Shown here: positions 1,028-17,677 of the stretch, piece after piece
Numbering within the stretch: the first letter of the stretch is position 1
Layout: the number at the start of each line of letters is the position of its first letter
Source of the DNA: Sulfurimonas sp.
Lineage (GTDB): Bacteria > Campylobacterota > Campylobacteria > Campylobacterales > Sulfurimonadaceae
Assembly: GCF_028713515.1 (NCBI RefSeq)
Contig: NZ_JAQTOD010000004.1
Location: 1 to 64,000 of the forward strand
Direction: 5' to 3'
Length of the DNA stretch: 64,000 bases
Position numbers and translations under genes: made by a program
The notes under the pieces: model-generated
The model's input: only the letters and a program-made list of their open reading frames with translations
Database searches by the model: none
Told to the model about the DNA's origin: nothing

Positions 1028-1800
1028 AAAACTTGCTCAACAAGTTTAGCATCAAGAATATTATAATCTATTTTAAGTAACTGAGTAATTAAACATTCTT
1101 TCCTTTTAATATTGTTGGATAATTTAGCTAATTTAGCTTTGTAATTCTCTTTAATAGCCATAACCATTTGTTCATCAGATAGTTGGCAATGTTGATTAAT
1201 TGACTTTGCAAAATTTTTAATAGCTCTTGTAAATAAAATAAAATCGTCAAAAACTAAAGTAGTAATGTTATTAGGTGCTTTTAGAATTTTATAATCAGAA
1301 TTTTTTATTGTATCTGCAATCTTATTCTCATATTTAGTGATTTTTTTATCAGATGAGTGTACAAAAATATTTCTAACAAGTCTGTAGTGATTTATTATTG
1401 AATAGTCTAAAGTAGATTTTAACGATCCCTTATTTAATTTTCTTAAAATATAGTCTAATATTGTTTCTTCTTGCTGTTTACTTTTTTTATCACCAAGGTC
1501 TGGATGTTCTTCAATTAGCTCTTCTAAATATTTTTCAAATCGTTCGTATACATTAATTATGTGCAATATCATTACTCGACTTTCTAATTTCTTTATATCT
1601 ACATAATTAACTTTAATGACATGTTTTTCTGATAATTCGGTAATATTTTTTTGTATAGTTTCTTTTGATGTGCTTATATCTGGAGATACTGTGCTTATGA
1701 ATTCTCTAGTTGCTAATTCTATAGATTCAACAATAGCATCGATTTCTCCTAATGTTGTTTTCAAATTTTTATAACATTTAAATCTAAAATTATTTTCCAT
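1018..1800 (-). CDS. HEPN-domain protein, putative RNase, last gene of the defence operon
   Basis: This 260-residue all-alpha protein has no named family that I can assign with certainty. Residues 143-148 read RNIFVH, matching the R-x4-H signature of HEPN ribonuclease domains. It follows a helix (about 135-142, SIINHYRL) and comes after an earlier helical region with VYERFEKYLEELIEE (about 84-98), as in HEPN folds. HEPN proteins in defence loci usually cut tRNA or other RNA. The start at 1800 (MENNF) overlaps the hsdR end by 11 bases; an in-frame ATG at 1863 would overlap by 74 and is less likely. The 3' end overlaps the tRNA-like gene by 10 bases. A role as an RNase effector or toxin is inferred. 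Confidence 0.6.
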   Translation of the reverse strand: MENNFRFKCYKNLKTTLGEIDAIVESIELATREFISTVSPDISTSKETIQKNITELSEKHVIKVNYVDIKKLESRVMILHIINVYERFEKYLEELIEEHPDLGDKKSKQQEETILDYILRKLNKGSLKSTLDYSIINHYRLVRNIFVHSSDKKITKYENKIADTIKNSDYKILKAPNNITTLVFDDFILFTRAIKNFAKSINQHCQLSDEQMVMAIKENYKAKLAKLSNNIKRKECLITQLLKIDYNILDAKLVEQVLKD

Positions 1801-4800
1801 CTGTAAGTACCTTATACTTCTTGAAATTCTCAGCCTGCTCGAAAATCTCTCTATACACTTCATCTTTTGTAATCGGTGGATAACCGTGTTTAGCCAGCAA
1901 CATAATCAAATCAACTTTTAGCTCTGCTTTTATATCTTCTCTGACATTCCAATCTGTATATTTTGACTTGTCATCCACAACTACCTTGACCTCTTTAGCT
2001 AAGGCGATTAGTTTATCTTCGGGATACGCAAAATCATATTTATGCGCTATAGCTTTTAAAATGTCGTAAAAAGCTTTTTCTTCAAAGTCGATACCTAAAT
2101 CAGCAAATGACTCTTTTTCTTTTTGCAGAGCATGATAGAGGTCAATAATTTCATCAGTGAAGTCCTCTAGGACTCCACTGACAAGTACATCTTCTTCTTT
2201 TCGTTCATTGTATTTTTGAACTAATGCAGTAAATTGTTTTGAAAAATCAATAGCTTTGACTTTGTTAACCTTTTTAAAATCTTCTAATGCTTTTGCCAAA
2301 AGTTGTTGTAGAAGCTTTATCTTCGTATTGGGCAGTTTGATTTTCTCTATCTTGTTGATATAGTCTTCGTCGAATATATCTATCTTTGAGTCGTTCTCAC
2401 TTCCAAGTTTAAATATCTCTTCGACACCGTCACTTTTTAGAGCTTCTGTGATCATTTGAGACACTTTTGCATTCATTTGTGCCGTATCAGGTGCATCACC
2501 ACGGGTTAGTTTAATAACAATAGAGCGAACTGCCAAGTAAAAATGGATGTGATTTTTTTCTGATTCACTGAATACTTCACTGCCACAACAGATATTGTAA
2601 GCAGATTTAAGTCTTTTTACAATATAGATAAATCTACTCTCTAGCTCTTTAGTAAGTTGCACATATTCACTGGCAAGATTTAAGCACTTTAACTGCTCTG
2701 TCGGACTCCCGTTGAAGTAAAGGTGCGTGTCAAATTTATGAAATAGTTTAGAAAGTAAATCTAGTTGATCCTTGACAACGACTATGGAAGCATTTATATC
2801 TTCAAAATTTTGGCTATCTATTTTTGAAAACTGTTTGAGAGCTTTGTTCATAGCGGTTTTTATACCTATGTAGTCAACAACCAATCCTTTGTCTTTACCT
2901 GCATATTTTCTATTGACTCTTGAGATTGTTTGGATGAGATTATGCTCTTGTATAGGTTTGTCTATATAGATGGTATCTAAAAATGGTACATCAAAACCAG
3001 TAAGCCACATATCAACGACTATAGCGATTTTAAAGTTTGATTTTTCATTTTTAAATTGTGTATCGAGTGTTTTTCTATACTCTTTTGTTCCTAGCAATTC
3101 ATAAAGCTCTTTACTATCATCCTTATTTCGAGTCATAATCATTTTTAGCTTTTCAAGAGGCAGTATCTCTTGTTTCTCTTTATCTGTAAGTTCTATTTCT
3201 TCATCACATACTCTTTGTTCGCCCCACTGTGGTCTTAATGCGATAAGCTCAGTATAGAATGCATACGCTATTGGTCTGCTACTAGAAACAAATATAGCTT
3301 TCCCTTTGAGTGTAGCTCCCTCTCGTACTCTTTTTTCATAATGCTCTACGAAGTCTTTCGCTACAGCTTTTATCCTATCTGGATCACCAAGTATGGCGTT
3401 CATATTTGCCATCACTTTTTTACTATCCTCTATTTGATACTCATTAGTTCCAGCACTTGCACATTCTTCATAATACTCTTCAATTTCATGCAGTTTTGAG
3501 TTATCAAGTAAGACTTTCGCAGCTCTTCCTTCATAGACTATACGTACAGTAATCTCATCTCTTACGGATTCTGTCATGGTGTAGCTGTCTATCACATCTC
3601 CAAACACGTCTAAAGTCGCATCAATCGGAGTACCTGTAAATCCTACAAAAGTTGCATTTGGTAAGGAATCATGCAAGTATTTTGCAAAACCGTATGTTTT
3701 TTTAACGCCATCTTTTGTCATTTTTATTTTTTGATCTAAGTTAATCTGGCTTCTATGTGCCTCATCAGAGATTACAATGATATTCGTTCTCTCACTGAGT
3801 AGTTCTAAATCTTCTGTAAATTTATGGATAGTAGTGAGAAAGACTCCACCACTCTCTCGACCACTTAATCTTTGTCTTAAATCTTCACGACTTTCTACGC
3901 TGACAATTCCATCATCACCTATAAATCCCTTTGCATTACCGAACTGTTGGCTTAATTGTGAATCTAAATCTGTTCTATCTGTAATGAGTATAATTGTAGG
4001 ACTCGAAAAATGGATACTTTTCATCAGCATTCTCGTCAAGTAGAGCATAGTGAAGCTCTTACCGCACCCTGTGGCACCAAAATATGTACCACCTTTACCG
4101 TCACCTTGTGGTTTTTGATGCAGTTTTATATTTTCGTAAAGTTTTCTTGCGGCATAGTATTGAGGATAACGGCAAACTATCTTTTCCTCTTTTTTTGACT
4201 TATCGGGCATATAGATAAAGTTGTGGATGATATCTACGAGTCGCTCTTTATTAAACATTCCTTGAATCATTGAGTGCATTGAAGCTATACCATCTACATC
4301 TACTTCATCGCCAGTAATTTTTCTCCAAGCATAGAAGAACTCATACGGTGCAAAGAATGAACCCGCCTTATTGTTTACTCCATCACTTATGATACAAAGA
4401 GCATTATATTTAAATAGCTCAGGTATATCTCTTCTGTATCTTGTTGTAAGTTGTACATAGGCATCATGGATGGTAGCTTCTTCTCTAATGGCACTTTTAA
4501 ACTCAAATACGACCAATGGCAACCCGTTTATATACAGTATGCCATCAGGTATTCGTTTTTCATAGCCAACTATTTCAAGCTGATTCACTATTTTAAAAGT
4601 GTTGTTTTGTACATCTTCATAGTTTATGAACTGTATATGGATGTCTTTTTGATTTGCATCTTCTCTTTTAAAGATAAAACCATCAGCTACTAGCTTCATA
4701 ATGGATTTGTTTGTATCGTATAAGTCGCTTGATGGATATGACTCTAGTTTTCTAATGATCTGATTGATTTCACTCTCTGTGATGTATTCAGGCTTATATC

Positions 4801-4948
4801 TATCTGCTAGATATTTTCTTAGATCATTTACTAAAAGCACTTCGCCGTCAGCTCTTGCTATCTCTTTGCCATACTCGTAGCCAATACCTTGCTCACCAAG
4901 AAGTTCTATAAATGCCAGTTCGAGTTTTTCTTCTGTGAATTTATTCAT
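1790..4948 (-). CDS. hsdR: Type I restriction enzyme R subunit (HsdR)
   Basis: At 1052 residues this has the usual HsdR length. The R subunit cleaves DNA after ATP-driven translocation when the HsdM2HsdS complex meets unmethylated sites. Visible in order: an N-terminal PD-(D/E)xK nuclease core (NGLPLVVFEFKSA, about 143-155), Walker A GATGCGKS (about 290), the helicase DEAH-type box SDEAHRS (about 393), FTGTPI (about 437), and a second RecA-like domain with DMWLTGFDVP and QTISRVNR. A long helical C-terminus would bind the MTase. All motifs look intact. It sits seven genes after hsdS, separated by other defence genes. Its start overlaps the fic stop by 4 bases (ATGA). Confidence 0.96.
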   Translation of the reverse strand: MNKFTEEKLELAFIELLGEQGIGYEYGKEIARADGEVLLVNDLRKYLADRYKPEYITESEINQIIRKLESYPSSDLYDTNKSIMKLVADGFIFKREDANQKDIHIQFINYEDVQNNTFKIVNQLEIVGYEKRIPDGILYINGLPLVVFEFKSAIREEATIHDAYVQLTTRYRRDIPELFKYNALCIISDGVNNKAGSFFAPYEFFYAWRKITGDEVDVDGIASMHSMIQGMFNKERLVDIIHNFIYMPDKSKKEEKIVCRYPQYYAARKLYENIKLHQKPQGDGKGGTYFGATGCGKSFTMLYLTRMLMKSIHFSSPTIILITDRTDLDSQLSQQFGNAKGFIGDDGIVSVESREDLRQRLSGRESGGVFLTTIHKFTEDLELLSERTNIIVISDEAHRSQINLDQKIKMTKDGVKKTYGFAKYLHDSLPNATFVGFTGTPIDATLDVFGDVIDSYTMTESVRDEITVRIVYEGRAAKVLLDNSKLHEIEEYYEECASAGTNEYQIEDSKKVMANMNAILGDPDRIKAVAKDFVEHYEKRVREGATLKGKAIFVSSSRPIAYAFYTELIALRPQWGEQRVCDEEIELTDKEKQEILPLEKLKMIMTRNKDDSKELYELLGTKEYRKTLDTQFKNEKSNFKIAIVVDMWLTGFDVPFLDTIYIDKPIQEHNLIQTISRVNRKYAGKDKGLVVDYIGIKTAMNKALKQFSKIDSQNFEDINASIVVVKDQLDLLSKLFHKFDTHLYFNGSPTEQLKCLNLASEYVQLTKELESRFIYIVKRLKSAYNICCGSEVFSESEKNHIHFYLAVRSIVIKLTRGDAPDTAQMNAKVSQMITEALKSDGVEEIFKLGSENDSKIDIFDEDYINKIEKIKLPNTKIKLLQQLLAKALEDFKKVNKVKAIDFSKQFTALVQKYNERKEEDVLVSGVLEDFTDEIIDLYHALQKEKESFADLGIDFEEKAFYDILKAIAHKYDFAYPEDKLIALAKEVKVVVDDKSKYTDWNVREDIKAELKVDLIMLLAKHGYPPITKDEVYREIFEQAENFKKYKVLTDGK

Positions 4949-5895
4949 TGTTTTACTTCCCAGTATCCTGATTTTAAGCTTCCAACTCTATTGAGAATTC
5001 CTTCATCTTTGAGCTTTTTGATAACTTTTTTTACACCTGATTCACTCATGGCAAGTATTTCCATCAGCTCTTTTATCGTTATTTTGTTCTTTTCTTGCAT
5101 CAAAGAGAGTATCTTTTGGTCACTTTTATAGTTACTTTTTTGGTCACTTTTTAAAGTGTTTTGAATGGCTTTTAATATCATCTCTAACATAAACTCTATA
5201 AATGGGGTACTTTCTCCATTTTGAGTCGAGCTTTCGATAGCATTGTAATACTCTTCTTGATTATCTCTTACAATACTTTCAGTAGGCAAGAGTGAGAAGA
5301 TAGGATTTAATCGGTTTAGAATGACCGTCTGCCACAGTCTGCCGATTCTCCCATTTCCATCTGAAAATGGGTGTATAAACTCAAATTCATAGTGAAATAT
5401 GCACGATTTTAAAAGAAGATGCTCATTGCTCATCTGTAACCATGAAAAGAGTTGTTGCATTAACTCGCTTACCATGCTAGGCTGTGGTGCTATATGTTCA
5501 CCCACTTGTACGTTTACACCTCTAAAACTTCCTGCCGATGTGAGAATATCGCCCATTAATATTTTATGAGCGAGCAGAAGATCGTCTAAGCTGTCGTACA
5601 TGTAAGCATCTAGTTTTTCATAGGCTTTTATAGCTCCCTCTACCTCTGCCAGCTCTTTAACCGTACCCAACACCTTTTTACCATCAAGTATAGCGGTGAT
5701 CTTCTCTTCACCGATAAAATTCCCCTCTATCTCCAAAGTACCAGCTAATGTTTTAATACGGTTCTTTTTTCTTAACATAGGGTTTACTTTTGTAAACTCG
5801 GTGAACTGGAGTTTTGTGAGCTCTTCGCTAATTTGCGTTGAAAGTTTGAGGATTTTTGAAGTGATCGTATATGGAGGTATATTTAATTTATTCAT
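4945..5895 (-). CDS. Fic family protein with C-terminal winged helix
   Basis: The 316-residue protein carries the Fic core HPFSDGNGRIGR (about residues 176-187), with catalytic His and the anion-binding GNGR. Fic enzymes usually transfer AMP from ATP to protein hydroxyls. A T-x3-E-G pattern (TLEIEGN, about 53-59) fits the N-terminal inhibitory helix of class II Fic proteins, where the Glu blocks productive ATP binding. The last about 60 residues (from LSLMQEKNKITIKELMEIL) look like a winged helix-turn-helix, so it may bind DNA or regulate the operon. It overlaps the ABC ATPase stop by 8 bases and hsdR by 4. Fic genes inside type I RM operons are common, with unclear purpose. Confidence 0.9.
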   Translation of the reverse strand: MNKLNIPPYTITSKILKLSTQISEELTKLQFTEFTKVNPMLRKKNRIKTLAGTLEIEGNFIGEEKITAILDGKKVLGTVKELAEVEGAIKAYEKLDAYMYDSLDDLLLAHKILMGDILTSAGSFRGVNVQVGEHIAPQPSMVSELMQQLFSWLQMSNEHLLLKSCIFHYEFEFIHPFSDGNGRIGRLWQTVILNRLNPIFSLLPTESIVRDNQEEYYNAIESSTQNGESTPFIEFMLEMILKAIQNTLKSDQKSNYKSDQKILSLMQEKNKITIKELMEILAMSESGVKKVIKKLKDEGILNRVGSLKSGYWEVKQ

Positions 5896-7876
5896 TTATA
5901 AAACCTCTTGTCCTCCATCTTCTATTACTAACTAAACTTTCAAAATCAGTATTATTATCAAGAGTCAAATGGTCAGCATGATCAGTAACTATAACTTGAA
6001 GTTCAATACCTGTTTCTTCAAATGTTGTTTTGCAAAAAGAAACTAATTGATTAAATAAATTAGTAACAGCTCTTAAATCTTCATCTTTTGTCCCTGTTCC
6101 TTTTTTTGCTTCAATATCATCAATATTGAATTCTATATTCTCATCTTTTATAGAAGTTGGGAAATAAACTTGGCTTGGTTGATCTAGAAATAAAATAGCT
6201 GGAATTAAAGATTTATCGCCTAAAGAACAAAAGAATTTATGTAAAGCCAAAAATAAAGTCACATGACTATATAACCAATTCGCACCACTTCCCATAGAAC
6301 GAAGATAAATTTTTTCTCCACTTTCTCTTTCATGCCATAAATCAAAACTTTCTAATGAAAATTTCAAATTAATAGGTTTGTATGTTTCTTCAAAATCAAA
6401 TTTTTCACCAATTTTTTTCATTTCAGTATTGATATACTTTTCTGCATTTAATAATTTTTTAGTAACAGCAAATTTCTCTTTTAAATCTTTTTGATAGTCT
6501 TGTATTTTTTTCTTTGAAATATTAATTTGTTCTTCAAGACTGGAACTATCTCTACCTACCAAATTTTCAAGTAGATTTTCAATTTTAAGCTTAACTTTTA
6601 AGCCTTGTTCTTCTAAACTTTTATTTCTTTCTAATCCACTTGTAATGTCTTCTAATTTATTAATTTTTTGATAAATACTTCTAATTTCATTATCTAAGCT
6701 ACTAATTTGTTCTTCAATCTCTTTTTTATCACTTTCAAATGAATCAAGTAAATAATTAGATTTTGAAAGTTCACCATTAAGCCAATGAATAGCACTTTCT
6801 AAATGATTTGCTTGAATTAAAATTTTTTCATTATGTGTATGACAAAAAGGGCATTCTGATACTTTAACTTTTTCTTCACTTTCATTTGTCAAATTTTCTA
6901 CATCATGAAAATGTTTATTTGCGTACTCTATTGAAGATGAAATATCGTTAAGTTTATTTTGCAAAATCCTTTTTTTTGAATAAAGCTCATTTTTTTTATT
7001 TCTTAATACTTGTAAGTCTTTTAAACTTTGCTCAGATTCATAATTAGTCAAAATCTCTTTTTTTTCAAGTTTTTGTAAGGTATTTGCAGGATTTATGAGT
7101 ATTTGCATTATACTTTCATCTGTTAATTTATTACCAGTAATTGCATAATACTCATCCAATAAATCATTTAATTTATGAGTATTAAATTCATTTTGCTGAA
7201 TTAATGCTTTTTGTTGATTTTCTAAACTCTTAAAATTTCTTTGTTCATCCGCCAAACTTTGCTTAATAGTGTAGTATTCTTGTTTTACGAAACTAGCAAA
7301 AATTTTAAATTGGTCAATTGTTTGTTCTCTTTTTTCTTTTTCATCAAACCTATAAAATAAAGAGTGTTTATTAGCTACTAAATTTTGATGTTGTAACAAA
7401 AAAGGTATCATATTTCTAATTGATGGGCGACCTTTTTTAGCATTATTTTTTCTATAATTTCTATCTTCTAAATCTTCATCCGTATCCGTTATATCTAACC
7501 CTAAGTAATGACCTAAATCCACATTAAAATCTTGTGTAAAATAGCTTTCTTCAAAATATTCTTTTTTTAGATTTTCAATATTTGGCGATTCAGATTCAAA
7601 TTTTAAGAATTTTTTTGATAAATTTGGACTTCTACCAATAGTTATAAAAGAGTCTTTAATAGCTAAAACCATAAAATATACATCTGCACTATCTGTAATA
7701 ATGCCTGATGGTATTGTAAACTCACTGCTACCAAAACAATAATCAAATAGTTCAATCATTGCACTTTTCCCAGTAGATGATTTACCTGTAATTACATTAA
7801 CGCCCGTGTTAAATTCAACATAATGTATTTTGTTTGATTTATCCACAACACCTAGATATTTTACATGACTTTTCAT
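5888..7876 (-). CDS. DUF3732 Rad50/SMC-like ATPase of an ABC-3C-type system
   Basis: This 662-residue protein has Walker A GKSSTGKSA near residue 32, long coiled coils (about 195-330 and 365-500) flanking a Rad50-type zinc hook CPFC near residue 343, an ABC signature-like SMGSGANWL (about 537), and the Walker B region PAILFLDQPSQVYFP (about 570) that is characteristic of DUF3732. Such ATPases are the motor of three-component ABC (ABC-3C) conflict systems, thought to sense DNA or invasion states and switch on a fused or partner effector. It overlaps the middle component by 4 bases (ATGA) and fic by 8. By eye this block is richer in A and T than hsdM or hsdR. Confidence 0.88.
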   Translation of the reverse strand: MKSHVKYLGVVDKSNKIHYVEFNTGVNVITGKSSTGKSAMIELFDYCFGSSEFTIPSGIITDSADVYFMVLAIKDSFITIGRSPNLSKKFLKFESESPNIENLKKEYFEESYFTQDFNVDLGHYLGLDITDTDEDLEDRNYRKNNAKKGRPSIRNMIPFLLQHQNLVANKHSLFYRFDEKEKREQTIDQFKIFASFVKQEYYTIKQSLADEQRNFKSLENQQKALIQQNEFNTHKLNDLLDEYYAITGNKLTDESIMQILINPANTLQKLEKKEILTNYESEQSLKDLQVLRNKKNELYSKKRILQNKLNDISSSIEYANKHFHDVENLTNESEEKVKVSECPFCHTHNEKILIQANHLESAIHWLNGELSKSNYLLDSFESDKKEIEEQISSLDNEIRSIYQKINKLEDITSGLERNKSLEEQGLKVKLKIENLLENLVGRDSSSLEEQINISKKKIQDYQKDLKEKFAVTKKLLNAEKYINTEMKKIGEKFDFEETYKPINLKFSLESFDLWHERESGEKIYLRSMGSGANWLYSHVTLFLALHKFFCSLGDKSLIPAILFLDQPSQVYFPTSIKDENIEFNIDDIEAKKGTGTKDEDLRAVTNLFNQLVSFCKTTFEETGIELQVIVTDHADHLTLDNNTDFESLVSNRRWRTRGFINE

Positions 7877-8349
7877 AGCTCTTTCACTCCTAATAATCTG
7901 TATATTGCAACAACATCCAAATCTCTGAAAATTTTATGTAAATTTGAAGAGGCTTTAAATGACTGATTCAAATTTTCCACCTTATTCTCCACTTTTTTTA
8001 AAAATTCAATCGATAAATCTTCATTAACTCTAATCCATTGATTGTCAATAGCATGTTGAATACATTGATTCGTTATCTCTTTATAATTTTTAATTCTATC
8101 TGGTAAACCAAAAACATTTTCTCTTTTTGATTTGTCCTTACTATCCATAAAAGTATGAATGTTACTTGTTGTTCTAACAGTTTGAAGTGTTTGTTTGCTT
8201 CGCTCATTTAATACTATAGGCAAAATAAGATAAGCTAATAAAATATTTTTTGGCTTTTCTCCAAGTTTTTCATAAAATGCCACAATTAATGGAGTAAAAA
8301 CAAAAGGATTATTATGTATTTTAGAAACATTATCAATAAATTTATTCAT
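7873..8349 (-). CDS. ABC-3C middle component-like protein
   Basis: A small, mostly helical protein of 158 residues between an effector-like gene and the DUF3732 ATPase. The opening (FIDNVSKIHNNPFVFTPLI) and its size and position match middle components (MC) of ABC three-component systems, believed to couple the ATPase to the effector. I choose the ATG at 8349 because AAAGG lies 9 bases before it; the TTG at 8358 and ATG at 8355 are too close to that site. It lies within the last codons of the upstream gene, so translation is probably coupled. No catalytic motif is visible. Confidence 0.75.
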   Translation of the reverse strand: MNKFIDNVSKIHNNPFVFTPLIVAFYEKLGEKPKNILLAYLILPIVLNERSKQTLQTVRTTSNIHTFMDSKDKSKRENVFGLPDRIKNYKEITNQCIQHAIDNQWIRVNEDLSIEFLKKVENKVENLNQSFKASSNLHKIFRDLDVVAIYRLLGVKEL

Positions 8350-9493
8350 CTTCATCAACCTTTAATTTCCAAGTGATTTTTCTTTCATTCTCACTGCTTT
8401 CATCATCTGCCATTTGATGTAAAAGACCATTTCTAAATCGTTTTGGAGTATCATTAAAATTTCTAAAATTTGGTGTATTCTCTCCCATTACACTGTTATA
8501 AAATATTTTTGAGTCTCTTGGAACTTTGGAATTTTCAGTACCTAGTGAAGCCATATTATATTTTGATTTGTAAGTATCATGTATCTCTTTTTCATAATTA
8601 TCGTAATATATAGTAGGTACCTCATACCTGCTCAATTCTTCAAAAATTGTTTTTCTAGTATAGATAAAATCTGAAATTGCATCACTTTTAACATCTTTAT
8701 AATTTATCTCATCAATTTTCTTTACAAAAGTGTATTCTGAATGTTGTTTTTCTTCATCTTCAGTTGCCATTACGCTTCGATATATTGCTGGAAAAATAAT
8801 AGTTTTTGAATTGAACTCTTCTAATAATGATGTTGTTCTTGCTTGAAAAGATTGATATGTAATTTTCCAATCTTGAGAGGTAATAGGTGGACTTATAATA
8901 TATCCCATTAGTGAATTAATATAATCAGTTTTTTTATCAGAAGGCACTCCATATGTTCTTGCTTGTATCAACCTTTTATAAAGTTCTTCATCATTTTCTT
9001 GTGAACTTGAAATTATAAACTTATTCAAAATCTCCAATAATTTTTCATTTCTTGAATTATCCAAAACTAATAGCAATAATTCTTCTGTTTCTTTTGCTTT
9101 TTTAGTTTGTTCTAAAAATAATGTGTTTATATCTTTTAAAATCGATAATTTTTCATTTTTATTCTTACTGTTCCATTCTTGAAAAGCTGTCATCTTACTC
9201 AAATCTTGAGTAGTTAAAAGTATCAAGTTTTTATATGTTAATATATTTGGATCATTGAGCCAATTTTTCAGTGTTTTCCAAATATTGTGATCTAAATTCG
9301 TTAAATCTTTTTCATAGTCTTTAACTTCGGTTTGACTACTTCCATTTTTATTCATTACTGTAACATCACCATATGTTTCAATATAAACACTTTCATTTTC
9401 AAGTAAGTCAAAACATTTTTCAAGTGCAATATAACATTGATAAAAAATAGGCTTAATTGTTTTTGTTGCATCGTGAATAAGTTTATCAGCCAT
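8342..9493 (-). CDS. ABC-3C effector/CTD component with nuclease-like N-terminus
   Basis: This is a 383-residue protein in the effector position of the ABC-3C module. Near the N-terminus, FYQCYIALEKCFDLL is followed by VYIETYGDVTV and SSQTEVKDY (about residues 38-60): an E..D...E-x-K pattern like that of DUF4297/PD-(D/E)xK-type DNases often carried by such components. The rest is helical and probably serves as the C-terminal domain that meets the MC and ATPase. No membrane segments are seen. Nuclease activity is inferred from the short motif only; a homologue search would be needed to name the CTD class. Confidence 0.6.
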   Translation of the reverse strand: MADKLIHDATKTIKPIFYQCYIALEKCFDLLENESVYIETYGDVTVMNKNGSSQTEVKDYEKDLTNLDHNIWKTLKNWLNDPNILTYKNLILLTTQDLSKMTAFQEWNSKNKNEKLSILKDINTLFLEQTKKAKETEELLLLVLDNSRNEKLLEILNKFIISSSQENDEELYKRLIQARTYGVPSDKKTDYINSLMGYIISPPITSQDWKITYQSFQARTTSLLEEFNSKTIIFPAIYRSVMATEDEEKQHSEYTFVKKIDEINYKDVKSDAISDFIYTRKTIFEELSRYEVPTIYYDNYEKEIHDTYKSKYNMASLGTENSKVPRDSKIFYNSVMGENTPNFRNFNDTPKRFRNGLLHQMADDESSENERKITWKLKVDEDE

Positions 9494-9565
9494 TTCTCAA
9501 ATCCTACATTATTTGTTTTAATTTTATTAGCATTGAATCAAATTCCTCTTGTTTGGTAATTATTA

Positions 9566-10612
9566 CTATTCAATAGTTTTAGCAAAAAAAACTCTATCAA
9601 TACCATAAAAATCCAATAGAACAGCAATAAAACTCTTTACTTCTGTTGTTGAATAAGTGTGTAATTTGAAAATTCTATTCGCACTCAATAGCTCAAACTC
9701 CAAAGAGGAAGCAAAAATACTTTTTAACACCTTATTATCCGAAAAATATTCAGCTAAAATATCAGTTGGCATATTTTCAAACTGTTTTGAAATATTATAT
9801 CTAGCTTGATTTGCTATGCTCTGTCCATTGTCAGCATATTGTTCAACGAAAGACAAAGACATATCAATAATTCTTTTAATTTCCTTTTCACCCTTATTTC
9901 CATATCTAAATCCATTTTTAAAGGCATTTTTTCTAGCATCTGCATCTTCTAAAAAAGCTAAATCTCTTTGAATATAATCAAGATTAATAGCAATATAAGA
10001 ACATAGTAAATAAAAAATTCTAAGAGAAATTTCTTTTTGTGATGGTTTTGTAAATATCTGTTCAACAAAAAATTTAGTAATATTGAGTAATTTATTCATA
10101 TTATCAAAATTTAATCCAAGTGCCAAGAGTGATTTTGCTTCTAAAAACTTATTTTTCCAATCACCATCCAACTTGCTTAAAGAATAAGAATCAATCATTG
10201 AGATTATTTCTTCATCTGTCAATCTTGCTTCTAAGTATTGTTCATAATTCTTAATTTTATTCAAGAAATTTCCATCTAAAACAAAAACATTTAAATCTTT
10301 TCCAAAATCTTTCACATCAGGTCTTTTATCTGTTGTAGCAATTAAAGCATTAGTGGCTTTTATTGCAGTTTGTAAACCTTTTACCCAAAATATTCTCTCA
10401 ATAGCTTGGGGTGTTTTTTTATTTTTGATATCAACTATAGAAATTTCTCTAGATACAGAAGATGTACGATTATAAAGCCATAAGTCAATATCAGTTATTG
10501 CAAAACCTCTATAATTAAATGGTATTCCTCGTGCTACATAGTAGCCATTTTTCAAGAAATATATTCTCAATATCTCTTCTGTTTTAAAACCTTTGTTTAT
10601 TGCTGTAGCCAT
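9566..10612 (-). CDS. PD-(D/E)xK nuclease-like protein of a two-gene cassette
   Basis: This 348-residue protein starts with KGFKTEEILRIYFLKNGYYVARGIPF, then ITDIDLWLY (about 38-46) and ISIVDIKNKKTPQAIERIFWVKGLQ (about 57-81). This order, a helix with Glu, then D-x-D, then (D/E)-x-K, resembles restriction endonuclease-like nucleases that act on DNA. The remaining 230 residues are helical without recognisable motifs. A strong site (GGGAGGA) precedes the ATG, which follows the upstream stop by 2 bases, so the two genes are probably made as a pair. I cannot assign it to a named defence system. Confidence 0.6.
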   Translation of the reverse strand: MATAINKGFKTEEILRIYFLKNGYYVARGIPFNYRGFAITDIDLWLYNRTSSVSREISIVDIKNKKTPQAIERIFWVKGLQTAIKATNALIATTDKRPDVKDFGKDLNVFVLDGNFLNKIKNYEQYLEARLTDEEIISMIDSYSLSKLDGDWKNKFLEAKSLLALGLNFDNMNKLLNITKFFVEQIFTKPSQKEISLRIFYLLCSYIAINLDYIQRDLAFLEDADARKNAFKNGFRYGNKGEKEIKRIIDMSLSFVEQYADNGQSIANQARYNISKQFENMPTDILAEYFSDNKVLKSIFASSLEFELLSANRIFKLHTYSTTEVKSFIAVLLDFYGIDRVFFAKTIE

Positions 10613-10614
10613 AA

Positions 10615-11895
10615 TTAAAATCCTCCCGTTCTTAATGCCATAATCATATTGTTAGTATCTTTTGCAGTTCTATCCACTTGTTTTTTTCTGATATTCACTC
10701 GATTTACTTCTGGTCCTTTATATTTGTTGATTGTTGCACTTGGCAAAGATGTTAATGATTGCTCACTTATATTTCCTTGTTTTATTGCCTGTAAGGCAAG
10801 TTCTCCAACATCTTTTTTAAGCAACTTCATCATCCAACCACTTCTCTTATTGCCTTGCCAACTTGTTTTAGAGCCATGTTTAATCTCAACAACATGTTTT
10901 AATTCTAAAACCTTATAATCTTGCCCTATCGCATCAACTGGTCCTACTTCCTCACCTCTAATTAGTGCTTTTAGTAGTTTTTCTATCATAGTGATATTTC
11001 CTCTGCTAGAACCACTTTTTGTCATACCATAAGTTAATGAACTGACAAAAGCTTTGGCTAAATCAAATGCATCATCAACATTAGATGAACTATATTTAGA
11101 AAAAGACGATGGTTTAGTTAAAAATCCAACTTCTCCTTTTTCGTTACTTACAACATTAATATCAAACATACCTATTGCACTAAGTTTAGAATATAATTGT
11201 TCACCTAATATTTTGATTGCCTGATTTGATTCAATGCAAGCCTTTTCATCCAATAATTTATTAAATTGTATAAGCTTTGTTTGTTCATCTTGAGTAAGTG
11301 AAGCTAGAACTTGCTGTATTTTTTTTGTATTTTCTCTTTTAAAAAGATTACCATTGAAATACAAAGTATTTTGATCATCTATATTTTCTACATCTACTAG
11401 CCCAATTTGTTCTATATTTTGCTGAAATGAACTTAGTGATGTAGCATCAATTTTATATTGGTCAGATATTTCTGCCAAAATATCTTCTCGCCTATAAGGT
11501 GTCTCTGATATCTTTTCCGAAAGTATAATCGAAGCAAATTCTGTTTTATCAGGTTCTTGACTTTGAAATATTTTGCTAGTATGTTCAAGTGTAGTGGAAG
11601 TTGTAAGACCCAATATTGCTATACCTGACTGTCCAATATCTATTAATTCATTTGCTTTTAAAATATCTAGCAAAGCTTTTTGTTCTAATTTAGATATATT
11701 AGCTTCTTTTGCCAATGCATCAATTTTGGTTTGATTTAAAGTAAATTCCTCTGAAGTACTTAATGCAGAAAGTAAAATACCAGCTTTACCAGCCGTTTTT
11801 ATATTATCAAAAGCTGTCGTATTGACTGTTTGTAATTTATTTGCATGATGAATCAACCATGCTCCCTGCGTTTTTAAATCAATGCTATCTATCAT
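10615..11895 (-). CDS. Unknown 426-residue protein with winged-helix-like repeats
   Basis: I do not recognise this family. Residues about 40-110 (TLNQTKIDALAKEANISKLEQKALLDILKANELIDI) read like a winged helix, and a second similar helical unit is at about 125-180. The C-terminal third holds VLELKHVVEIKHGSKTSWQGNKRSG, a basic and mixed strand-helix part that could bind nucleic acid. There is no ATPase, nuclease, signal or membrane motif. It starts at 11895 with AAAGGA just upstream, right after the hsdS remnant, and precedes the nuclease-like gene by 2 bases. A DNA-sensing or regulatory partner of that nuclease is a reasonable guess, not shown. Confidence 0.55.
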   Translation of the reverse strand: MIDSIDLKTQGAWLIHHANKLQTVNTTAFDNIKTAGKAGILLSALSTSEEFTLNQTKIDALAKEANISKLEQKALLDILKANELIDIGQSGIAILGLTTSTTLEHTSKIFQSQEPDKTEFASIILSEKISETPYRREDILAEISDQYKIDATSLSSFQQNIEQIGLVDVENIDDQNTLYFNGNLFKRENTKKIQQVLASLTQDEQTKLIQFNKLLDEKACIESNQAIKILGEQLYSKLSAIGMFDINVVSNEKGEVGFLTKPSSFSKYSSSNVDDAFDLAKAFVSSLTYGMTKSGSSRGNITMIEKLLKALIRGEEVGPVDAIGQDYKVLELKHVVEIKHGSKTSWQGNKRSGWMMKLLKKDVGELALQAIKQGNISEQSLTSLPSATINKYKGPEVNRVNIRKKQVDRTAKDTNNMIMALRTGGF

Positions 11896-11908
11896 TTATA
11901 CATCCTTT

Positions 11909-11998
11909 TCATAAATTGATCCTCATTTCTTCATTCAAAAGTTTTGGCAAGAGTGTATCTCTCAAGTTTTCAAAGGCTTGGATTTGTTTTCTATACAT
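11909..11998 (-). pseudogene. Detached C-terminal tail of an HsdS specificity subunit
   Basis: A 29-codon frame (ATG 11998, TGA 11909) encodes a helix with FENLRDTLLPKLLNEEMRI. This is the standard last segment of HsdS proteins (central/terminal conserved helix, then LRDxLLPKLMSGE-like). The complete hsdS upstream ends with its own, different tail (KEILLSKMATIEG) 2 bases earlier. The piece is therefore likely the 3' stump of an older hsdS allele left after the gene was replaced. It keeps an ATG with GAGGGG 8 bases ahead and could still be translated as a microprotein. Confidence 0.65.
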
Positions 11999-12000
11999 AT

Positions 12001-13233
12001 TTACCCCTCAATAGTTGCCATTTTTGAAAGTAAAATTTCTTTTAACTTAAATAGCTTTTTATTCATTGATTCAGTTACCCAAATATACTGACTACATTGA
12101 CTAATAAGTAAATAAAATTTGTCAATTATTATTCTATTAGGATGTGAAAATTTTATTTGTTCAAATTCTGTTTTATTTATCATTAACATTGTCGACGAAC
12201 CAATTGCAATATTCCTAAGATTTTCATAACTATTTAATAAAGTATAATACAAGTATTCGACCATTTTATTTTCATTTAGAATAATTGAATTTATCTGCTG
12301 ATTAGTTATACATTGAGTCTTGTTTATGACCACTTTTCCCATATCTGAACCTATACAAGTAACTAATAAAGAATCTTCTTTTAAAACCTTATTCTTTAAT
12401 TTTTTTGCACCTTTATTAGATAAGCTTCTTATTGATTCTGTAACAAATTTTCCGTAATTTTTATAATCAGTAGGTGTAATAAAAGGCATATATATACCAA
12501 AATCTTCTGGATAGTCGCTTGATGGTGTTTTTCCTGTAATCACATTACCAATTTCTGAAATTTTAGAAGCTTTCCACCCTTTAGGTATCTCCATATCCAA
12601 CTCTTCACAATAAACCATCTCACCACTATTTGATTTATATGGCTTACCATTTTCATCAGGAAACTCAAAATCCACAAACCACTCTTTATAGATACCTTGA
12701 GCGGTGTCTTCTAGCTTGTGATTTAGTTGTTCATTTAGTTTGATTCTATCTGTGATGGTGTGGTACTCTTTGACTATCTCTCTTTGTTTCTCGATTGATG
12801 GAACTGGAAGTTCTAAATCACAAAAATCTTCCCAGTTAAAGCCACCTCTCACGCTGCTATCAGTTGTAAACCAAGCATTTCTATCAAACTCACTTCTTCT
12901 ACACCACATCATCAGATATTCTGGCAATAATTCATTAGTGTCTACTATTTCAAAAACGACATAAGCAGGAGATACAATAACACTATCTTCGTGTGCAAGC
13001 ATACTGATTGGAAGAATTTCATCTCTTCCAACGTGCATTGGATTATAAGCGAATTGATTCTTTTCAACAATTTTATATACTGATAAGTCTGTGCCAGTGA
13101 CATTTGCGACTGATGGCATAAATTCTTTAGTTATATTTATACCTCGAAGATGTTCAACTGTTCGACTGTTAGAATTGTTTTTATTTTTGGCTTGTTGAAC
13201 AAACTTACCAATCTTTTTATAGTTTGATCTCAT
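12001..13233 (-). CDS. hsdS: Type I restriction-modification specificity subunit (HsdS)
   Basis: The 410-residue protein sets the DNA target of the complex. It has two target recognition domains: an N-terminal one ending in the conserved block WEDFCDLELPVPSIEKQREIVKEYH (about 126-150), followed by a spacer helix (KLNEQLNHKLEDTAQGIYKEWFVDFEF), then a second beginning IPKGWKASKISEIGNVITGKTPS and a closing helix ending KLKEILLSKMATIEG. The two TRDs recognise the halves of a split site that cannot be predicted here. The start overlaps the hsdM end by 17 bases. The piece of another hsdS tail directly downstream points to past allele exchange. Confidence 0.95.
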   Translation of the reverse strand: MRSNYKKIGKFVQQAKNKNNSNSRTVEHLRGINITKEFMPSVANVTGTDLSVYKIVEKNQFAYNPMHVGRDEILPISMLAHEDSVIVSPAYVVFEIVDTNELLPEYLMMWCRRSEFDRNAWFTTDSSVRGGFNWEDFCDLELPVPSIEKQREIVKEYHTITDRIKLNEQLNHKLEDTAQGIYKEWFVDFEFPDENGKPYKSNSGEMVYCEELDMEIPKGWKASKISEIGNVITGKTPSSDYPEDFGIYMPFITPTDYKNYGKFVTESIRSLSNKGAKKLKNKVLKEDSLLVTCIGSDMGKVVINKTQCITNQQINSIILNENKMVEYLYYTLLNSYENLRNIAIGSSTMLMINKTEFEQIKFSHPNRIIIDKFYLLISQCSQYIWVTESMNKKLFKLKEILLSKMATIEG

Positions 13234-14776
13234 AGCCCAACTCTTTAAAAACTGTTAATAGCTCATGCTTTGATCGTTCTTCCTCTTTTAGAAGCTCTGT
13301 AAATTCACCTTGAAGTGTTGTCATCTTTGTATCGAAATCTATATTTTCATCTTTGTTTACAAACTTGATGTATTTACTAGGAACGAGGGAATAGTCTTTT
13401 GCTCTCACTTCGTCTATCGTGGCACTTTTACAGTATTCTGCTATATCTTTATAAGCCTCTTTATCGCTTTGCCAAGTATGATAAGTTGATGATACTTCAT
13501 CTAACGTTTCATCGTCAAACTGCACAAATTTTTTCTCAAATGGCACCCCTTTTTTTCTTAAATCCATAAAGAGTATTTCTCCGGTTCTATCTCTATGGGT
13601 TTTTGTTCGGTCATTTTGTTCAAAAGTTCTGAGCTTCTTATTGGCATTGAGTATCCAAAGTGTTACACTGATGTCTGTGGTATAAAACATCTTCATTGGC
13701 AATACAAGTATAGCTTCCACTAAATCATTTTCTATTAGTTTTGCTCTAATTTTATACTCTTCACCGCCACCACTGAGTGATCCGTTTGCCAAGATGAATC
13801 CTGCTACTCCATTTTGAGAGAGTTTTGATACCATATTTAGTATCCAACCGTAGTTAGCGTTTGATGTAGGCGGTACATCGTATCCTGCCCATCTCGCATC
13901 ATCTAGCAGTTCATTTACACCTCTCCAGTCCTTTTGATTAAAAGGAGGATTTGCCATAATAAAGTCGGCTTTTAAATCTTTGTGTTGGTCTTTTGCAAAT
14001 GTATCGGCAGGTACATCTCCAAGATTTGCGGAAATTCCTCTAATGGCTAGGTTCATTTTGGCGAGTTTATATGTAGTCGCCGTGTATTCTTGACCATAGA
14101 CTGAGATATCTTTTTTGTTTCCGTTGTGAGCATCTATGAACTTGACAGACTGAACAAACATACCACCACTACCACAAGCAGGATCGTAAATTTTGCCTTT
14201 ATAAGGCTCTATCATGGTTGCTATCAGATTGACGATTGATTTTGGAGTGTAGAACTCACCTTTTCCTTTTCCCTCTGCAATAGCAAAATTACTCAAAAAG
14301 TATTCATACACACGACCGACGATATCGTGCCCTTTGTCTTCTATGGTGTTGATGTTGTTGATAGTATCTATAAGAGAAGAGAGCTTGCTTGCATCAAGCC
14401 CTAGTCTTGAGAAGTAGTTATCGGGCAAAGCCCCTTTGAGAGAAGGATTGTTTTTTTCAATCGTTGCTAAAGCTGTATCTATTTTGAGAGCTATATCATC
14501 TTGTTTTGCTTGCTGCTTGATATACGACCATCTTGATTCTTCTGGAAGATAAAATACATTTTCCATAGTATAAAACTCTACCATATCGATAAATGCTTCT
14601 TTTCCCTCTGATAGTAGCTTTTCTCTGCGCTCTTCAAATGTATCACTGACAAACTTTAAAAATATTAGACCTAAAACAATATGTTTATATTCACTAGATT
14701 CAACAGAGCCTCTTAGTTTATTTGCACTATCCCAAAGAGTTTCTTCCATAGATTTTTGATTTTTTTCTTTTGCCAT
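13217..14776 (-). CDS. hsdM: Type I restriction-modification methyltransferase (HsdM)
   Basis: This 519-residue N6-adenine methyltransferase is the first gene of the operon. It contains the N-terminal HsdM helical domain (ETLWDSANKLRGSVESSEYKHIVLGLIFLKFVSD), the AdoMet motif DPACGSGGMF (about 199-208), and the catalytic motif NPPF (about 279-282). With HsdS it methylates and recognises the target, and with HsdR it restricts. Gene order M-S-...-R is usual, but six other complete genes (and an hsdS stump) sit between S and R. The start at 14776 (MAKEKNQKS) follows a weak AAGG site. Confidence 0.97.
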   Translation of the reverse strand: MAKEKNQKSMEETLWDSANKLRGSVESSEYKHIVLGLIFLKFVSDTFEERREKLLSEGKEAFIDMVEFYTMENVFYLPEESRWSYIKQQAKQDDIALKIDTALATIEKNNPSLKGALPDNYFSRLGLDASKLSSLIDTINNINTIEDKGHDIVGRVYEYFLSNFAIAEGKGKGEFYTPKSIVNLIATMIEPYKGKIYDPACGSGGMFVQSVKFIDAHNGNKKDISVYGQEYTATTYKLAKMNLAIRGISANLGDVPADTFAKDQHKDLKADFIMANPPFNQKDWRGVNELLDDARWAGYDVPPTSNANYGWILNMVSKLSQNGVAGFILANGSLSGGGEEYKIRAKLIENDLVEAILVLPMKMFYTTDISVTLWILNANKKLRTFEQNDRTKTHRDRTGEILFMDLRKKGVPFEKKFVQFDDETLDEVSSTYHTWQSDKEAYKDIAEYCKSATIDEVRAKDYSLVPSKYIKFVNKDENIDFDTKMTTLQGEFTELLKEEERSKHELLTVFKELGYEIKL

Positions 14777-17002: not shown

Positions 17003-17677
17003 TCATGCCGCCTGTTGATCAAGCGGTTTATACCACTGCTTTCCGTTCCAGCGGAAACCGTATGCTTTGATACTATCTTTTTTAGCGTATATGTCATCGC
17101 CTATAACTATAAGAGAATTTCCCTGCTGTAATACGGAGAGCCCGAGATTGTATAGCGAGGTGTAATCTTGCGGAGAGCGGTCGTGTATCTTCTGCTGCGG
17201 TTGTTTTGATGGTAGTGAAGCTTGGGTGTTTTGCTGATGTGTTGTTGCTTGTCTGCCCTTGTCATATAGCGTATTTCCAAACTGTGCACCAAGTGTTCTA
17301 AAACATCTTTTTATACAATCAGTTACAGCTTCTTTAGCAGCATTTTCATATGCATCTGCCAATATTTTATTGATTCCAATACCAAATCCTATATCTTCAC
17401 GTTCTATTTGTTTGGTGTGTTGTAGATCATATACAGTGACCTTTACTATCGCCTTGTAGCAGATCACGATGTTCTGATTTTGATTAGTCTCTTGAGAGAC
17501 TTGTTCCAATTGGGATATGGTGTAGCTCCAATTGCCGTAGCCAAATATCCTGTTTGCTGTATCGATAATATCGAATCCTTCCAAATAAGAAAGTTCGATA
17601 TTGCCTTTGGTTCGTGTTTTGATACGGTTTGAATCTGGCTCGTAAGAAAGTACCTGTAACTGTTTTTCGTTAAACAT
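17003..17677 (-). CDS. Rad52/Rad22-family single-strand annealing protein
   Basis: The first 145 residues match the Rad52/22 annealing domain: SYLEGFDIIDTANRIFGYGNWSYTI, a strand pair ending in VTVYDL, then the conserved IGFGIG...LADAYENAAKEAVTDCIKRCFRTLG (about 100-133). Such proteins anneal complementary single strands and help recombination of phages and plasmids. The rest is a Gln-rich linker and a short C-terminal block (YAKKDSIKAYGFRWNGKQWYKP) probably used in DNA binding. A consensus AAGGAGG precedes the start at 17677. It is followed at once by the 72-residue gene. Confidence 0.85.
   Translation of the reverse strand: MFNEKQLQVLSYEPDSNRIKTRTKGNIELSYLEGFDIIDTANRIFGYGNWSYTISQLEQVSQETNQNQNIVICYKAIVKVTVYDLQHTKQIEREDIGFGIGINKILADAYENAAKEAVTDCIKRCFRTLGAQFGNTLYDKGRQATTHQQNTQASLPSKQPQQKIHDRSPQDYTSLYNLGLSVLQQGNSLIVIGDDIYAKKDSIKAYGFRWNGKQWYKPLDQQAA

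Follow-up and report, generated by a model that had tools for sequence, protein, structure and literature searches.

Why a type I restriction-modification (RM) operon should carry two genes that fit no named system is the question raised by this locus. The operon lies in a 64,000-nucleotide stretch of a Sulfurimonas sp. genome, hereafter the window (positions 1 to 64,000 of contig NZ_JAQTOD010000004.1). We think it somewhat probable that the two genes, A and B, form a self-contained, horizontally mobile defense module against phages and/or plasmids, in which a winged-helix array would sense or take position on nucleic acid and a nuclease would cut.

The two open reading frames occupy the positions first assigned to them, on the minus strand. 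A is upstream and B downstream, and by ORF coordinates in the window the stop codon of A is separated from the ATG of B by 2 bases. The hsdS remnant originally reported just ahead of the pair is real; it ends 13 bases before the ATG of A and adjoins an hsdS gene that appears to be full length. Genes run in the same direction in the order hsdM, hsdS, hsdS remnant, A, B, LmuA-like, MC3, DUF3732/LmuB, Fic, and hsdR. Thus, the pair is followed directly, inside the RM operon, by a complete three-gene Lamassu/ABC-3C system (5888 to 9493, minus strand) that the original prediction did not mention. The genes are as follows.

13217 to 14776, minus strand: hsdM, named from sequence and operon position
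12001 to 13233, minus strand: hsdS, by family matches
11909 to 11998, minus strand: hsdS C-terminal remnant, 29 codons plus stop, MYRKQIQAFENLRDTLLPKLLNEEMRINL, an HsdS-type tail
10615 to 11895, minus strand: gene A, 426 amino acids, tandem winged-helix units, putative sensor or targeting subunit
9566 to 10612, minus strand: gene B, 348 amino acids, PD-(D/E)XK nuclease plus helical C-terminal domain, putative effector
8342 to 9493, minus strand: LmuA-like effector of Lamassu/ABC-3C, by PADLOC
7873 to 8358, minus strand: LmuC/ABC-3C middle component MC3, by family profile matches and PADLOC
5888 to 7876, minus strand: LmuB/DUF3732 SMC-like ATPase, by family profile matches and PADLOC
4945 to 5895, minus strand: Fic protein, SoFic-like, by family matches; common to congener G073
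1790 to 4948, minus strand: hsdR, named from sequence and operon position

What B does is suggested by its first 125 residues. The structure predicted with 55 homologues is confident (pLDDT 93), and residues 7 to 112 follow the order H-E-E-E-H-E, the alpha-beta-beta-beta-alpha-beta arrangement of the PD-(D/E)XK fold. The following positions carry the core and its putative active site.

10238 to 10612, minus strand: PD-(D/E)XK core, residues 1 to 125, from the model, structure matches, and conservation
10577 to 10579, minus strand: E12, putative catalytic residue
10490 to 10492, minus strand: D41, putative catalytic residue
10484 to 10486, minus strand: D43, putative catalytic residue
10430 to 10432, minus strand: D61, putative catalytic residue
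10424 to 10426, minus strand: K63, putative catalytic residue

The D-x-D...D-I-K pattern first noticed in B corresponds to D41-x-D43...D61-I-K63, and it is not a chance occurrence, as its charged positions are conserved in all 55 homologues (with D or E at position 61) and lie within a confidently predicted PD-(D/E)XK fold. Indeed, E12, D41, D43, D/E61, and K63 are kept in 55 of 55 homologues, and R28, R73, G79, and G238 are likewise invariant. By structure comparison, residues 1 to 125 matched AF1548 (1y88) with a Z score of 13.1 (rmsd 2.7 Å, 112 residues aligned) and matched Can2, Card1, and EndoMS with Z scores of 10 to 11.6, so that fold and active-site layout resemble those of the whole group (Z scores of 10 to 13). 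Unlike the Can2/Card1 group, however, B has no CARF domain, and its C-terminal domain of about 220 residues lies outside the matches; that region (residues 130 to 348) is helical and less conserved than the core, and a structure comparison that scarcely covered it assigned it no known fold. We conclude that B is, by predicted fold and signature, a member of the PD-(D/E)XK superfamily and a predicted nuclease.

Gene A is predicted to encode an array of three to four tandem winged-helix (WH) units. The model of A (pLDDT 81) contains units of three helices and two strands (H-H-H-beta-beta) at approximately residues 26 to 98, 112 to 184, 198 to 262, and 301 to 358, located as follows.

11602 to 11820, minus strand: WH1, residues 26 to 98, from the model, structural matches, and similarity to WH2
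11344 to 11562, minus strand: WH2, residues 112 to 184, from predicted secondary structure and profile matches to WH1 and WH3
11110 to 11304, minus strand: WH3, residues 198 to 262, from predicted secondary structure and a profile match to WH2
10822 to 10995, minus strand: probable WH4, residues 301 to 358, from predicted secondary structure, invariant columns, and conservation by domain

The repeated winged-helix-like units originally seen in A are thus recovered in the model and in profile similarity within the protein, both between WH1 and WH2 (E value of 8e-4) and between WH2 and WH3 (E value of 6e-5). WH4 showed no profile similarity to WH1 to WH3 in the same comparison, and its winged-helix assignment is by predicted secondary structure alone. 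Residues 15 to 121 matched single WH domains with Z scores of up to 7.9 (69 residues aligned, rmsd 1.7), and all structural matches of A were to single WH domains with Z scores below 8. Foldseek placed RPC62 of RNA polymerase III in its top rows. RPC62/C82 and other tandem winged-helix proteins do carry several WH units in one chain, as A does, but the TM-score was 0.15 to 0.18 and the sequences are unrelated; thus, kinship was set aside and the resemblance is one of architecture, an analogy of fold only.

What A might read is suggested by its conservation. The best-conserved stretch is residues 263 to 345, with the motif GP..AI..DY..LE, in which G318, P319, A322, I323, D326, and Y327 are invariant and by their pattern form the putative recognition helix of WH4. 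The fold suggests a role in DNA binding, and invariance of the putative recognition helix suggests recognition by A of a shared feature, for instance a nucleic acid structure or B itself, rather than a variable DNA sequence. Pfam scans of A and 50 homologues gave no match to an ATPase family, and A had no P-loop NTPase match.

That neither gene could be placed in a known system also held up. Neither A nor B matched a Pfam, NCBIfam, or PADLOC family above threshold, matches being at chance level only, and the same was true of the 50 to 55 homologues in Pfam. A sequence search of solved structures returned no match to either protein, and published articles, searched by protein accession and supplementary tables aside, made no mention of the pair. 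Of the 42 E. coli systems validated in a 2026 screen (PMC13092281), 13 have PD-(D/E)XK domains, and those 13 may already include an A-B homologue. The pair is probably a defense system that lacks a name in the libraries searched, and prior discovery is possible.

A and B travel as a unit. A single motif pattern recovered 54 loci from a scan of 84,980 species genomes, 10 loci from viral contigs, and 9 plasmid records; cultured phages, also searched, yielded no copy of A. Two weak matches from the family scan were dropped, one because it overlaps a TolC-like ORF (L002) and the other because it is short and has internal stops (L003). B directly follows A in 67 of 70 examined loci (a set that includes a few duplicate records), usually with an overlap of 4 bases (ATGA) or 1 base; of the other three loci, two lie at contig ends and one, in Ensifer, has a truncated A. 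Moreover, distances among A proteins correlate strongly with those among B proteins (r of 0.96; the highest value under permutation was 0.52), as expected of genes inherited together. Finally, dN/dS was 0.015 to 0.19 between close pairs, which indicates that both genes are under purifying selection.

Tight pairing could also reflect addiction. B could be a free nuclease toxin and A its winged-helix antitoxin and autorepressor, the two being maintained by addiction and possibly causing abortive infection; a two-gene operon that is common on plasmids and prophages and encodes a DNA-binding-type protein followed by a nuclease has that general form. Plasmid pHZ52-3 of Vibrio parahaemolyticus HZ-52, however, persists with A split by ISVa2 and B intact (locus L006, 10001 to 12326), which makes a toxin-antitoxin pair less likely, with the reservation that polarity of the insertion could silence B. 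Moreover, A is large, multidomain, and better conserved than B, unlike small degradable antitoxins, and the exchange of one cargo for another in the RM slot gives no hint of addiction. We consider a toxin-antitoxin system unlikely, if the strongest of the alternatives, and favor the two-gene defense module.

The contexts in which A-B occurs point to defense. In a P4-like satellite at ssrA of E. coli AR_0150 and A17, the integrase-psu slot holds the pair and no other cargo; that slot is described as a reservoir of antiphage systems, and the study covers 79 P4-slot systems (PMC9122126). The islands that carry the pair in E. coli NCTC9040 and W2-5 have an integrase, lie at ssrA and tRNA-Pro, and contain two different ABC-3C systems. 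The W2-5 copy spans 11328 to 13632 of L077, and a P4-satellite copy spans 11750 to 14055 of L078. P2-like prophages carry the pair between gpV/gpW-type genes and gpR/gpS, and in Photobacterium its neighbors are TniQ and Cas8/5, which belong to an I-F3 CRISPR transposon. Elsewhere the pair is found beside Gabija (L013 and L052), Lamassu (L035), Iet (L039), Hachiman (L041), ABC-3C CTD10/DUF2326 (L013, L015, and L019), and RM genes. The recurrence of A-B in defense islands and defense cargo slots is a consistent pattern rather than a measured enrichment, and several of the contexts (plasmids and prophages) carry nondefense genes too. Together with the pairing and the lack of a fitting named family, it supports the original proposal of a candidate new two-part unit that would act in defense. 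An integron cassette was considered at L014, L016, and L020, where a hairpin lies upstream, but was dropped because the boundary is unlike attC and the repeats are not attC arrays.

Perhaps A-B instead belongs to the ABC-3C/Lamassu systems that recur near it, for example as an extra effector arm. Differing subtypes are indeed nearby in the window, at L013/L015/L019, at L035, at L076, and at L077/L081, but the variation in subtype from locus to locus is more in keeping with common residence in islands than with a constant partner. Moreover, most loci have no ABC-3C genes detectable within 8 kb, by a search of limited sensitivity, and in P4 satellites A-B stands alone. An accessory role of this kind is improbable, and we favor the self-contained module.

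That the A-B pair is horizontally mobile is clear from its distribution. Copies occur in about 12 phyla, among them Pseudomonadota, Bacteroidota, Actinomycetota, Bacillota, Cyanobacteriota, Planctomycetota, Gemmatimonadota, Nitrospirota, Acidobacteriota, Thermodesulfobacteriota, and Chloroflexota, and in one archaeal metagenome-assembled genome, where the copy could be a binning error. In the phylum of the window, A was found in 1 of 397 sampled genomes, namely, this one, and in the phylogeny of A the window copy falls among copies from gamma- and betaproteobacteria. The A-B/Lamassu block has a GC content of 26 to 31%, whereas the whole window and its hsdR, Fic, and hsdM genes lie at 34 to 37%. 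Among 5,426 complete E. coli genomes, 29 had a match, which in 22 extended over most of the query.

Mobility raises the further alternative that A-B serves the elements that carry it, by way of replication, maintenance, antirestriction, or exclusion of competitors, and not the host. Its carriers include mobilizable plasmids, P4-like satellites, P2-like and Mu-like prophages, and a CRISPR transposon. The pair is, however, dispensable cargo in carriers with relatives that lack it, and it also occurs within a type I RM operon and, next to unrelated defense systems, in chromosomal islands; exclusion of competitors, moreover, would functionally equal defense. We give service to mobile elements little weight, about as little as an ABC-3C accessory, and retain host defense as the preferred reading.

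The window itself shows how such a module may be exchanged. Two congeners have the same type I operon, with HsdM 87 to 89% and HsdR 86 to 87% identical to the window proteins, and each carries different genes between hsdS and hsdR. One (G073; L091, 8612 to 12763) has a SIR2/ThsA-like (Thoeris-like) protein of 898 amino acids and an Argonaute-like protein of 466 amino acids, plus the Fic gene; the other (G186; L092, 3458 to 5294) has a PDC-S05 candidate and an unmatched protein of 283 amino acids. Homology between the window and its congeners ends at 12000 and at about 5877, and thus the whole block of A-B and Lamassu is exchangeable.

5878 to 12000, minus strand: variable cargo block, A-B plus the three-gene Lamassu/ABC-3C system, from congener comparison and GC content

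We conclude that the site between hsdS and hsdR is a cargo slot and that the cargo of the congeners is largely defense-like; the type I RM operon is, in the window, an exchangeable cargo slot. Fic, being common to G073 but not to G186, seems to be part of the hsdR side of the operon and outside the exchanged block. An R-linked pair that modifies Hsd function, a reading suggested by the position of A-B between hsdS and hsdR in one direction of transcription, is highly improbable and already contradicted: the majority of copies lack neighboring hsd genes, homologues adjoin many other systems or none (the context being unrelated in nearly all other loci), and in congeners with HsdM and HsdR 86 to 89% identical this position is taken by unrelated cargo.

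The systems closest to A-B are similar in layout and different in parts. TgvAB is a two-gene modification-dependent restriction system inside a type I RM operon on VPI-2 of V. cholerae (PMC11411939), and like A-B it consists of two genes, codependent and nuclease based, in that setting. TgvAB, however, is of the DUF262/DUF1524 (GmrSD-like) kind among type IV systems, and Pfam scans found neither domain in A, B, or their homologues. WonAB, an ABC ATPase with a PD-(D/E)xK nuclease from the WASA-1 prophage of V. cholerae (PMC12137116), is prophage borne and likewise a two-gene operon of a sensor-like protein and a PD-(D/E)XK protein, but WonA is an ABC ATPase whereas A is a winged-helix array with no ATPase match. 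Lamassu/ABC-3C (LmuA-LmuC-LmuB; DdmABC), the recurrent neighbor, also joins a nuclease effector to a sensing partner but requires an SMC-like ATPase and a middle component, and in PADLOC A and B match no LmuA, LmuB, or LmuC model whereas the adjacent three genes do. To judge by sequence and context, A-B lacks the features that define Lamassu, WonAB, TgvAB, or a type I RM accessory.

How A-B would defend its host can be sketched from what was observed: the genes are an obligatory pair under strong purifying selection, the nuclease active site is intact and invariant, WH units are repeated in tandem, and the pair has spread horizontally and recurs in defense islands and defense cargo slots. A would recognize a conserved feature of nucleic acid, be it a DNA structure, an end, a modification, or an intermediate of replication or transcription, in preference to a variable sequence motif. 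Having done so, A would recruit or activate the PD-(D/E)XK nuclease B, in a complex formed probably through the helical C-terminal domain of B. B, in turn, might cut invading DNA and clear the invader, or might cut cellular nucleic acid in an abortive response that kills the cell. We infer both this division of labor and the defense phenotype.

A bolder version, which we hold only tentatively and think rather doubtful as a whole, is that A-B is an undescribed immune complex, found in about a dozen phyla and on phage satellites, prophages, plasmids, and CRISPR transposons. In it, an NTPase-free winged-helix array would read a universal property of the invader's nucleic acid, structure-like or modification-like as the invariant putative recognition helix of WH4 suggests, and would gate a PD-(D/E)XK nuclease directly. 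If the defense reading in general is right, A-B joins a nuclease to a winged-helix array where a helicase, an ABC ATPase, or an AAA ATPase is usual, and the question would arise of how self is discriminated from nonself without a methylase or an NTPase. It would also be a compact (2.3-kb), widespread defense module that the PADLOC copy searched does not include and that Pfam and NCBIfam leave unlabeled. The E. coli homologues, including the sole-cargo copies of P4-like satellites, make the pair directly testable in a laboratory strain.

Several observations stand apart. The ISVa2-split A of the Vibrio plasmid locus L006 is a natural mutant. In the window, the protein at 17003 to 17677, which by eye we take to resemble a Rad52-type single-strand annealing protein, suggests that prophage or mobile-element genes lie next to the RM operon. 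Large proteins without a PADLOC match lie beside or near the pair in other loci (L043, 3987 to 7894; L044, 6118 to 7956; L045, 4593 to 7772; and L077, 14405 to 16450), and in their defense-like islands they are possible further unnamed systems. Finally, we note that an hxsABCD (His-Xaa-Ser) radical-SAM cluster adjoins the pair in two E. coli islands (L076 and L079, approximately 8017 to 11414), and as the two islands are at different sites, the cluster and A-B may travel together.
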